Shown: positions 14,228 through 16,601 of the stretch, one piece after another
Position numbering within the stretch: the first letter of the stretch is position 1
How the letters are laid out: each line of letters opens with the position of its first letter
Origin: Micromonospora sp. WMMD1128
GTDB lineage: Bacteria > Actinomycetota > Actinomycetes > Mycobacteriales > Micromonosporaceae
Assembly (NCBI RefSeq): GCF_027497235.1
Contig: NZ_CP114902.1
Span: 1,625,501-1,689,500 of the forward strand
Direction of reading: 5' to 3'
DNA: 64,000 nt
Position numbers and translations under genes: made by a program
Notes under the pieces: model-generated
The model's input: the letters and a program-made list of their open reading frames with translations, nothing else
What the model was told of the DNA's origin: nothing
The model's database searches: none

Positions 14228-15315
14228 CCGGGCGGTTCCGGCACGGGCTGGTGGTCGGCAAGTTCTATCCGCCGCACGCCGGGCACCACGCGCTCGTCGA
14301 GGCCGCCGCGGCCCGCTGCGCCGCGGTGACCGTGGTGGTGGCGCCGTCCCGGCGCGAGTCGGTCCCGCTGGACCTGCGGCTGGACTGGTTGCGCGAGGTT
14401 CACGCCGGCACCCCGTGGGTGCGGTTCGTCGGCCGCTACGACGACCACCCGGTCGACTACGCCGACCCGGCGGTCTGGGACCTGCACTGCGCGGTGTTCG
14501 CCGACGCGTTGGGCGGCGAGCCGGTGGACGCCGTCTTCTCCTCCGAGGCGTACGGCGAGGAGTTGGCCCGCCGGTTCGGCGCGGTCGCGGTCGACGTGGA
14601 TCCGGAGCGGCGGGCCGCGCCGGTCTCCGGCACCGCCGTGCGCGCGGACCCGGCGGCCCACTGGCGGTGGCTGAGTCCGCCGGTGCGGGCGTGGCTGGTC
14701 CGCCGGGTGGTGGTGGTCGGCGCCGAGTCCACCGGCACCACGACCATGGCGCGGGCGCTCGCCCGGCGTTTCGGCGCCGCCTGGGTGCCCGAGTACGGCC
14801 GCGAGCTGACCGGGCGCAAGCTCGCCGTGCTGCGCCGGTCCCGGCCGGAGGCCACCGTCTTCGACGTCACCTGGGACCGGGACGACTTCGTCGAGGTGGT
14901 ACGCGAGCAGCAGGCCGCCGAGGACGCGACGGCGCGGGTCGGCGGCCCGCTGCTGATCTGCGACACCGATGCCCGGGCCACCGCGGTCTGGGAGGAGCGT
15001 TACCTGGGCTCGTCCTCGGCGGAGGTGCGGGCGGCGGCCCGCCGGCCGGCGCTCTACCTGCTCACCGACCACGAGGGGGTGCCCTTCGCCGACGACGGCC
15101 TGCGTGACGGGGAGCACCTGCGGGCGTGGATGACCGGGCGGTTCCGCGCGGAGCTGGCCGGGTGCGGGGTGCCGGTGGTCGAGCTGCGCGGGGCGCACGA
15201 GGAGCGCCTGGCCACCGCCGTCGCCGCGGTCGAGACCGTGCTCGCGGCCGGCTGGTCGTTCGCCGATCCGGTGCTGCCCGCCGACCCGACGGCATATTCA
15301 AAGCTAGCCTCCTAG
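14224..15315 (+). CDS. nadR: NadR-type NMN adenylyltransferase / ribosylnicotinamide kinase
   Basis: A 363-residue bifunctional enzyme without the N-terminal repressor HTH of enteric NadR. The first half is a nucleotidyltransferase with GKFYPPHAGHH and VSGTAVRADP (ISGTxxR motif). The second half, from about residue 160, is a kinase with P-loop GAESTGTTTMARAL. It converts nicotinamide riboside to NMN and then to NAD+. GTG at 14224 overlaps the pnuC stop by four bases. Lacking a DNA-binding domain, it is probably only catalytic. Confidence 0.93.
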   Translation: MTGRFRHGLVVGKFYPPHAGHHALVEAAAARCAAVTVVVAPSRRESVPLDLRLDWLREVHAGTPWVRFVGRYDDHPVDYADPAVWDLHCAVFADALGGEPVDAVFSSEAYGEELARRFGAVAVDVDPERRAAPVSGTAVRADPAAHWRWLSPPVRAWLVRRVVVVGAESTGTTTMARALARRFGAAWVPEYGRELTGRKLAVLRRSRPEATVFDVTWDRDDFVEVVREQQAAEDATARVGGPLLICDTDARATAVWEERYLGSSSAEVRAAARRPALYLLTDHEGVPFADDGLRDGEHLRAWMTGRFRAELAGCGVPVVELRGAHEERLATAVAAVETVLAAGWSFADPVLPADPTAYSKLAS

Positions 15316-15410
15316 GATGCGCTGCGGGTGGTGATGCGGGGCACCTGACAGCGATTGATGGGCGTCCGGAGATGCGCCAGGCGGGCGGGATGGTGAAGAA
15401 TGGCGGCCGA

Positions 15411-15515
15411 GGAGGGGAGTATTCCCCCGCGACGGAGTCGTCAGCACGGAAGAGCGCCAGCTCGACCCGGCTCCGTCGGTCGGCTCCCGCAAGGGCGTCG
15501 GCGGAAGAGACCTCC
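15411..15515 (+). ncRNA. yybP-ykoY (Mn2+) riboswitch
   Basis: The region has the conserved sequence order of this class: GGAGG then GGAGTA (15411-15421), CGTCAGCACGG (15439-15449), and the 3' GGCGGAAGAGA then CCTCC (to 15515). P1 is GGAGG/CCTCC, closing the two conserved internal-loop strands GGAGTA and GAGA. The class senses Mn2+ and often controls TerC/Alx-type genes, as here. The 3' P1 strand plus five bases (CCTCCGACAG, 15511-15520) is also complementary at 9 of 10 positions to CTGCCGGAGG at 15587-15596, the terC Shine-Dalgarno, giving a translational switch. Confidence 0.85.
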
Positions 15516-15591
15516 GACAGTCACCACAGTCAGCGTTGACGCACCCCGGCCCGCACCCGGCGTACGGTGTGCCCGACGCTGCGTGTCTGCC

Positions 15592-15596
15592 GGAGG
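15592..15596 (+). promoter_or_regulatory. terC Shine-Dalgarno that decides a TTG start
   Basis: GGAGG is directly abutted by an ATG (15597), followed in frame by TTG (15603, six-base spacing) and GTG (15609, 12-base spacing). Only TTG has ideal spacing, and it gives an N terminus MNVSALVW. The site is inside the segment predicted to pair with the riboswitch 3' strand. Confidence 0.6.
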
Positions 15597-15602
15597 ATGG
15601 AT

Positions 15603-16601
15603 TTGAACGTGTCCGCATTGGTGTGGGCGGTAACCCTGACCGCGATGATCGCGGTCCTGATGGCTGACCTGTTCATCATCGGCCGCCGCCCGCACGAGCC
15701 GAGCGTCCGCGAGTCGAGCCTGTGGGTCGGCTTCTACGTCGCTCTGGCGCTGCTCTTCGGCGTGCTGCTCTGGGTGACCGCCGGGCCGAGCGTGGCCGGG
15801 CAGTTCTACACCGGCTGGCTCACCGAATACAGCCTCTCGGTGGACAACCTCTTCGTCTTCGTGATCATCATGGGCCGGTTCGGGGTGCCCCGGCAGTACC
15901 AGCAGAAGGTGCTGCTCATCGGCATCCTGCTGGCGTTGGTCATGCGCGGCGGCTTCATCGCGGCCGGCGCCGCGCTGATCTCCCAGTTCTCCTGGGTGTT
16001 CTACATCTTCGGCGCGTTCCTCATCTACACCGCGGTGAACCTGGCCCGGCAGGGTGAGCCGGACGAGGACGAGTTCAGCGAGAACGTGCTGATCCGGTGG
16101 AGCCGCAAGGCGCTCCCGCTGTCCCGGGACTTCGACGGGGCGCGGATGACCACCCGGGAGAACGGACGGTGGCTGTTCACCCCGATGCTGATCGTGATGA
16201 TCGCGATCGGCACCACCGACCTCATCTTCGCGCTCGACTCGATCCCGGCGATCTTCGGCATCACGCAGGAGCCGTACCTGGTCTTCACCGCGAACGTCTT
16301 CGCGTTGATGGGGCTGCGGCAGCTCTACTTCCTGCTCGGCGGCCTGCTGGACCGGCTGATCTACCTCAGCTACGGGCTGGCCGTGGTGCTCGGCTTCATC
16401 GGGGTGAAGCTGGTCCTGGAGGCGCTCGCCGACAACAACCTGCCGTTCCTCAACGGCGGCGAGCCGGTGGCCTGGGCGCCGCACATCCCGATCTGGCTCT
16501 CGCTGACGGTCATCCTCGGCACGCTTGCCGTGGCCACGGTGGCGAGCCTGGCCAAGTCGTCGCGGGACCGACGCCGGGAGTTGGCCGAGGCCCGCCGCTG
16601 A
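15603..16601 (+). CDS. TerC/Alx family membrane protein, riboswitch-controlled
   Basis: About 332 residues with nine or so hydrophobic segments. TerC hallmarks are ADLFIIGRRPHEPSVRES, LTEYSLSVDNLFVFV (acidic, membrane-embedded), GTTDLIFALDSIPAIFGIT and VFALMGLRQLYFLLGGLLDRL. The conserved acidic residues are the presumed metal ligands. Family members are linked to Mn2+ export or metal loading of exported proteins. The Mn2+ riboswitch supports a manganese role and expression when cytosolic Mn2+ is high. The gene is convergent with the NlpC/P60 gene. Confidence 0.92.
   Translation: MNVSALVWAVTLTAMIAVLMADLFIIGRRPHEPSVRESSLWVGFYVALALLFGVLLWVTAGPSVAGQFYTGWLTEYSLSVDNLFVFVIIMGRFGVPRQYQQKVLLIGILLALVMRGGFIAAGAALISQFSWVFYIFGAFLIYTAVNLARQGEPDEDEFSENVLIRWSRKALPLSRDFDGARMTTRENGRWLFTPMLIVMIAIGTTDLIFALDSIPAIFGITQEPYLVFTANVFALMGLRQLYFLLGGLLDRLIYLSYGLAVVLGFIGVKLVLEALADNNLPFLNGGEPVAWAPHIPIWLSLTVILGTLAVATVASLAKSSRDRRRELAEARR

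Follow-up and report, generated by a model that had tools for sequence, protein, structure and literature searches.

A putative alx-type Mn2+ riboswitch upstream of terC in Micromonospora, with a P1 strand that may double as anti-Shine-Dalgarno sequence

The terC mRNA of Micromonospora sp. WMMD1128 very probably begins with an alx-type Mn2+ riboswitch, a translational ON switch in which the 3' strand of helix P1 would also serve as the anti-Shine-Dalgarno (anti-SD) strand. The leader lies in the window, the 64,000-nucleotide stretch of genomic DNA analysed here. At the level of sequence, comparison among relatives establishes the fold of the aptamer, two mutually exclusive helices, their covariation and the target gene. 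From homology to Escherichia coli alx, the TerC and GDT1 targets and the anatomy of the leader, we infer that Mn2+ is the ligand and that its binding turns expression on, presumably at the level of translation. These results support the riboswitch interpretation offered by an earlier, sequence-only reading of this DNA.

In the proposed mechanism, the terC mRNA would start with an alx-type Mn2+ riboswitch devoid of P2, with P1/P1.2, P3 and P4 meeting at a three-way junction. Mn2+ bound between L1 and L3 would hold P1 (GGAGG/CCUCC) in place, leaving the SD free so that TerC is made. When Mn2+ is absent, CCUCCG-A-CAG-U-CAC would instead form a helix with GUG-U-CUG-C-CGGAGG that masks the SD (the OFF state).

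Control of TerC by the yybP-ykoY Mn2+ class is already known, as is the mechanism itself. The present analysis adds the actinobacterial extent of the group, the failure of the current model to see it, covariation evidence for the P1/SD toggle and the set of three genes in one genome. On balance, the data favor a broad actinobacterial alx-type subclass that escapes Rfam at its cut-off. In this subclass a single strand would pair either within P1 or with the SD, which would couple the evolution of three elements: P1, the switch strand and the SD. It would control a small manganese regulon, which in the window's genome comprises two terC genes and a GDT1/MneA-like gene, and in certain lineages also genes with no link to manganese so far, which encode a PGPGW membrane protein, a GreA-like protein and an unnamed protein family. 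The leader offers actinobacteria a testable manganese switch of compact, translational design.

Anatomy of the terC leader

All features described here are on the forward strand. Genes for an NMN transporter and an AAA/cytidylyltransferase-like protein precede the leader (15405-15602), which on direct reading consists of a compact aptamer, a linker and a strong SD. A sigma-70 consensus scan found no promoter; a candidate -10 region (GGTGAAGAATGG, 15392-15403), placed by lining up the upstream regions of relatives by eye, lies just 5' of the aptamer, and relatives carry, for example, GAACAAT, TATACT or TAGACT near the corresponding place. Further upstream, at 15304-15320, is a CTAGCCTCCTAGGATGC-like stretch that has counterparts ahead of the leader in several Micromonosporaceae (e.g., L012, L020, L022, L028, opposite strand).

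The aptamer opens with the 5' strand of P1 (GGAGG, 15411-15415), whose partner, CCUCC (15511-15515), is the putative anti-SD strand. Both strands are read directly from the sequence, and two of the five P1 pairs are changed on both sides among relatives. Inside P1 lies the L1 loop, GGAGUA/GAGA, as in the alx type of yybP-ykoY RNA. Its 5' side, the conserved Mn-site loop (GGAGUA, 15416-15421), is identical in all 96 rows of alignment A2, and on its 3' side (GAGA, 15507-15510) the first base is conserved in 93 of the 96 rows and the remaining three in every row. P1.2 pairs UUCC (15422-15425) with GGAA (15503-15506), with three of four pairs changed on both sides. The 5' strand of P3 (15430-15439) folds onto 15469-15478, and 8 of the 11 pairs of the modelled helix are changed on both sides; the consensus fold extends P3 by G15440-C15468. 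L3 (GUCAGCAC, 15440-15447) contains A15443, which is present in 96/96 rows, and the P4 hairpin (15479-15502) shows changes on both sides in seven of eight pairs. P1, P3 and P4 thus all covary, as expected of the alx-type class. Over the entire aptamer, 95.6% of the cells in A2 are paired and 20 of 28 pairs are changed on both sides, a result reached in 0 of 500 shuffles; because A2 was fitted to the model, these pairing statistics lean in that direction.

The consensus fold of 26 relatives (RNAalifold) has a three-way junction at which P1, P1.2, P3 and P4 meet. This fold contains no P2 hairpin and hence departs from the four-helix form of yybP-ykoY. By eye, loci L214 and L217 seem to carry a P2 hairpin.

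Downstream of P1, the anti-SD strand is extended by GACAGUCAC (15516-15524), which covaries with the SD side in other loci. In 28 of the 30 Micromonosporaceae loci listed, the pentamer GACAG comes directly after P1; the exceptions are L021 and L025. A linker that is variable among relatives (15525-15582) closes the predicted OFF helix, and the SD side of that helix, GUGUCUGCCGGAGG (15583-15596), includes the SD itself (GGAGG, 15592-15596). The terC gene (15603-16601) encodes 332 amino acids, and its start is likely the TTG at 15603, six bases 3' of GGAGG; the terC genes of relatives start, as judged by eye, with TTG or GTG 5-8 nt past the SD. The product matches Pfam TerC and the NCBIfam model TIGR03718 (400.6 bits, cut-off 246.4), whose name, 'R_switched_Alx', in our reading alludes to riboswitch control. 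An intrinsic terminator, which the sequence-only reading had considered unnecessary, was rejected as a component of the leader, as a scan of 15300-15640 detected no terminator-like site.

Assignment to the alx-type Mn2+ class

The expectation that the leader would match the yybP-ykoY family (RF00080) did not hold. No Rfam 15 family reaches its cut-off anywhere in the window, and RF00080 as modelled in that release, with a gathering score of 45 bits, yields no match to 15300-15700 even at E<=10. Eighteen related loci likewise show zero Rfam matches of any family at E<=0.1, and the best RF00080 match in the window's own genome, in the leader of a GDT1 (UPF0016/MneA-like) gene, scores 17.7 bits. 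The same GDT1 leader scores 52.3 bits with model R1, whose training set was 26 leaders from the window's family. Across 197 genomes of the class, RF00080 matches seven at E<=0.01 and none over its cut-off, whereas R1 matches 106 at E<=0.01; the current Rfam model therefore passes over the alx-type group. The failure of RF00080 says little about the window's leader, because the E. coli K-12 stretches that hold the alx and mntP leaders (L223, L224) also lack an RF00080 match at the gathering score in Rfam 15. The notion that it refutes a riboswitch was rejected, since alx itself falls below the RF00080 cut-off and is nevertheless recovered by our models. R1 gives a full-length match to the alx leader (18.4 bits, E 0.0012 in 20,002 bases), and R2, built from 96 matches, reaches 38.6 bits (E 2.4e-7 in 34,980 bases), the E-values of both models being rough. 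The mntP leader has no match with R1 or R2 at E<=10.

The leader of alx, an experimentally known member of the class, shares with the window's leader L1 (GGGGAGUA), L3 (GUCANNAC), a 3' GAGACC, helices P1, P3 and P4, the lack of an evident P2, and an Alx/TerC target. It differs in that its P1 3' strand forms part of a local inverted repeat (AGACCUUGCC/GGCGAGGUCU) and is complementary to the SD (AAGG) over roughly four bases only, against 9 of 10 and more in the window's leader. Of 135 located matches, 132 carry the L1 motif GGGGAGTA and 128 carry GAGACC; L134 and L136, which have no L1 motif and are probably chance matches, were excluded from this count and from the tree set described below. 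By analogy, the invariant A15443 would correspond to the adenosine that binds Mn, A41 in Lactococcus lactis and A48 in Xanthomonas oryzae (PMC6754395, in its available excerpts). Judged by sequence, the best reading of the window's aptamer is the Mn2+-riboswitch type of E. coli alx. That RF00080 misses the leader and that the consensus fold has no P2 could also point to a distinct, unnamed riboswitch class, a look-alike of the Mn2+ riboswitch with another ligand; the full-length match of alx to both R1 and R2, the same L1 and L3 and the same kinds of target genes leave this barely probable.

Several known systems can be compared with the proposed alx-type switch, as described in the accessible portions of the sources. 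For mntP of E. coli, translational ON control by Mn2+ has been reported (PMC9603457, PMC11647493), as proposed here, although its leader is unmatched by our models and its target belongs to another family. The yybP-ykoY aptamers of L. lactis and X. oryzae resemble the window's leader in combining an L1/L3 Mn site with a switching P1.1 helix (PMC6754395, PMC11087558), but they form a four-way junction and, according to the same excerpts, control transcription. The Mn riboswitch of Streptococcus pneumoniae mgtA differs in its target and, as summarized in the text available, is also transcriptional. TerC control by the Mn2+ class is exemplified by the meeY riboswitch of Bacillus subtilis (excerpts of PMC10550928), and tellurium-resistance targets of the class are mentioned in the available part of PMC3766115. 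A further precedent is terC (cg2157) of Corynebacterium glutamicum, an actinobacterial terC leader likened to ours by its description as yybP-ykoY, with 49.13 bits for the RF00080 model of the Rfam of that time and a 5' UTR observed by RNA-seq (PMC3890552, accessible text). Within the literature searched, to which subscription journals contribute little and other sources in part, this is the sole report that ties an actinobacterial terC leader to the class. The accessible text of PMC3890534 and PMC3917459 gives yybP-ykoY matches in another Corynebacterium, the gene being unnamed there, and earlier screens are stated to have recovered known RNAs that include Mn2+ riboswitches (PMC8164766, in part).

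Pairing of the P1 3' strand with the Shine-Dalgarno sequence

As the sequence-only reading had pointed out, the P1 3' strand and the five bases that follow it (CCTCCGACAG, 15511-15520) complement an SD-containing segment (CTGCCGGAGG, 15587-15596) at 9 of 10 positions, the mismatch being A15517.C15590. Direct reading reveals an even longer helix, which continues past U15521.U15586 with CAC (15522-15524) paired to GUG (15583-15585), and precisely this extended helix appears in the unconstrained minimum free energy (MFE) fold of 15405-15614. When the bases of 15521-15602 are shuffled, pairing at 9 of 10 positions arises by chance in 90 of 20,000 randomized sequences, and in 537 of 20,000 when the SD and the sequence downstream of it are kept, because any good SD supplies the CCTCC/GGAGG pairing. 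Taken alone, the pairing in the window is suggestive; the comparative tests raise the evidence above chance.

The ease with which CCTCC complements any strong SD allows another explanation, in which the pairing is a by-product of an aptamer with GGAGG/CCUCC and an SD of GGAGG, and switching proceeds via Rho or RNA decay; Rho-dependent termination has been reported for E. coli mntP (PMC11647493, in the portion available). This explanation is nonetheless highly unlikely, as positions 6-9 of the OFF helix covary outside the SD core. Moreover, in several leaders whose P1 3' strand reads CCTTC, CCTTG, CCTCA or CTTTC, the SD side is changed to match (L053, L109, L111, L125, L201). Examples of matched arms are CCTTCGGCAGC/GCTGCCGAAGG (L109), CCTTGTG/CACAAGG (L111), CCTCAGTTC/GAACTGAGG (L125) and CCTTCCACCA/TGGTGGAAGG (L113).

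Covariation of the alternative helix in related genomes, which the sequence-only reading had named as a test of its model, is borne out by two tests. The SD-anchored test covers 110 usable terC loci, 14 of the 137 located matches having been dropped for want of a TerC gene or an anchor and 13 more for want of RAGG. Over these loci, 300 of the 440 cells for OFF pairs 6-9, which lie beyond the SD core, are paired (against 248.1, sd 6.7, in shuffles), and the excess persists with one locus per genus (143/200; shuffles 109.5, sd 4.7) and with one per family (70/96; shuffles 53.4, sd 3.3); the observed value is reached in 0 of 5000 shuffles in each case. This test, together with the tree-based null, replaced a comparison of the longest ungapped helix within the last 60 nt between own and swapped partners (7.0 versus 6.3 in 123 loci; 7.4 versus 6.2 with one per genus), which is weak because SD regions share GCCGGAGG.

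In the tree-based null, every column changes independently. The set comprises 142 of 190 leaders; 48 were dropped, of which 10 had no TerC, 18 no RAGG and 15 no anchor, four were too far and one was too short. The OFF helix is paired in 1068 of 1278 cells (null 753.9, sd 67.5, maximum 1005; 0/1000), a figure that may be flattered by dropping the leaders with no RAGG or no anchor, although OFF pairing is present by eye in L176 and L201, two of the unanchored leaders. When the register is slid by +1 or -1, the observed value is reached in 101 and 282 of 1000 simulations, respectively, and is thus ordinary. The six varying OFF pairs have individual P values of 0.004 to 0.077, so that the strength lies in their sum, and 26 pair-branch events involve changes on both sides. 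The same test applied to P1 itself gives 691 of 710 cells (null 547.0, sd 47.4; 0/1000). The set includes near-duplicates, such as L005 and L143 from M. humi, which the tree should place adjacent. Mutually exclusive helices on the P1 side and against the SD are therefore both conserved, the arrangement expected of a translational ON switch.

Some variation surrounds this pattern. An A.C mismatch occurs in the OFF helix in 7 of the 10 sampled genera of the window's family, L055, L066 and L084 seem to be devoid of the OFF helix, and L023 has about 270 extra linker bases with a repeated GGTTCGAGAGC-like unit while retaining both OFF-helix arms.

Fold energies, which take no account of tertiary or Mn2+ contacts or of co-transcriptional folding, generally favor the OFF state. 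In the window, the OFF fold is 5.5 kcal/mol lower than the P1 fold (-100.2 versus -94.7). In a sample of the 110 with a single locus for each genus (50 in all), the OFF fold is the lower in 48 (median 11 kcal/mol, with no ligand terms), the exceptions being L052 and L119; the MFE fold contains OFF pairs in 42 loci and none of the tested OFF pairs in eight. Forcing P1 leaves a mean of 2.46 of 5 SD bases unpaired in these loci, compared with 0.22 of 5 when the OFF helix is forced. In the window, forcing P1 frees one of five SD bases; consequently, release of the SD is not predicted by energy alone. The predicted OFF fold of the window also holds the P1 5' strand and L1 in a GGGGA/UUCCCC-type hairpin, possibly an extra feature of the OFF state.

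Genomic copies, target genes and distribution

Three R2 matches are found in the window's genome, at the window's terC, at a second terC (the only other TerC gene found there) and at the GDT1 gene. The second terC riboswitch (L226 1501-1614, equivalent to C1:3382906-3383019 on the minus strand) has P1 strands CGAGG/CCUCG and a perfect 9-bp OFF helix, CCUCGAACA/UGUUCGAGG (in DNA letters, CCTCGAACA/TGTTCGAGG). The riboswitch of the GDT1 leader lies at L001 1493-1599; its MFE fold shows no P1/SD pairing and places the P1 3' strand on GGUCGAGG upstream of the SD. The expression platform predicted for the GDT1 leader hence seems to differ from that of terC.

These targets bear on the nature of the signal. 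The same aptamer and switch could respond in the cell mainly to alkaline pH, or to pH plus Mn2+, as for E. coli alx: the window's leader is of the alx type, and reporters of the alx and mntP riboswitches are sensitive to alkaline pH as well as to Mn (PMC9603457, accessible text). However, the same RNA precedes GDT1/MneA-like genes, and MneA (PMC13274385) and TerC (PMC9936198) are tied to manganese in the available parts of these reports. The sequence itself does not distinguish the two signals; given its targets, a switch driven chiefly by pH, alone or together with Mn2+, is unlikely, and Mn2+ is the preferred signal.

The RNA is widespread in actinobacteria. A DNA search of the window's family, Micromonosporaceae, gave matches in 130 of 150 genomes, including weak ones elsewhere in the genome, and at the phylum level R2 matched 44 of 198 genomes. 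The located matches are a subset of the class-wide R1 matches plus the family-search loci; of these 137, 125 precede TerC, four precede GDT1-type genes (one being the query's own L001) and eight precede neither. R1 matches occur in 55 of the best 80 of 591 TerC loci; 50 of them lie just upstream of the matched TerC and five about 1.1 kb upstream (L156, L159, L162, L163, L170). The named loci with an R1 match among these 80 come from Micromonospora, Actinoplanes, Streptosporangium, Mycolicibacterium, Nocardioides, Cellulomonas, Curtobacterium and others, with one from Salinicola. The TerC of M. humi is 96% identical to that of the window.

Several matches lie in other contexts. The same aptamer precedes a PGPGW membrane protein (L120), a protein with a GreA/GreB C-terminal domain (L127) and a protein family that matches nothing in Pfam or NCBIfam at E<=0.01 (L098, L107, L121); the products of these genes may belong to manganese physiology. 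L134 and L136, the probable chance matches, also have neither TerC nor GDT1 downstream. A genome of the same genus (G045) carries an aptamer followed by neither TerC nor GDT1 (L063 51-169), possibly an orphan copy. Salinicola is a gammaproteobacterium; in Salinicola peritrichatus, the same aptamer, with an apparent P2 hairpin (L217 1358-1477), accompanies a TerC that is 55% identical to the window's, and gene transfer is a possible origin of the pair.
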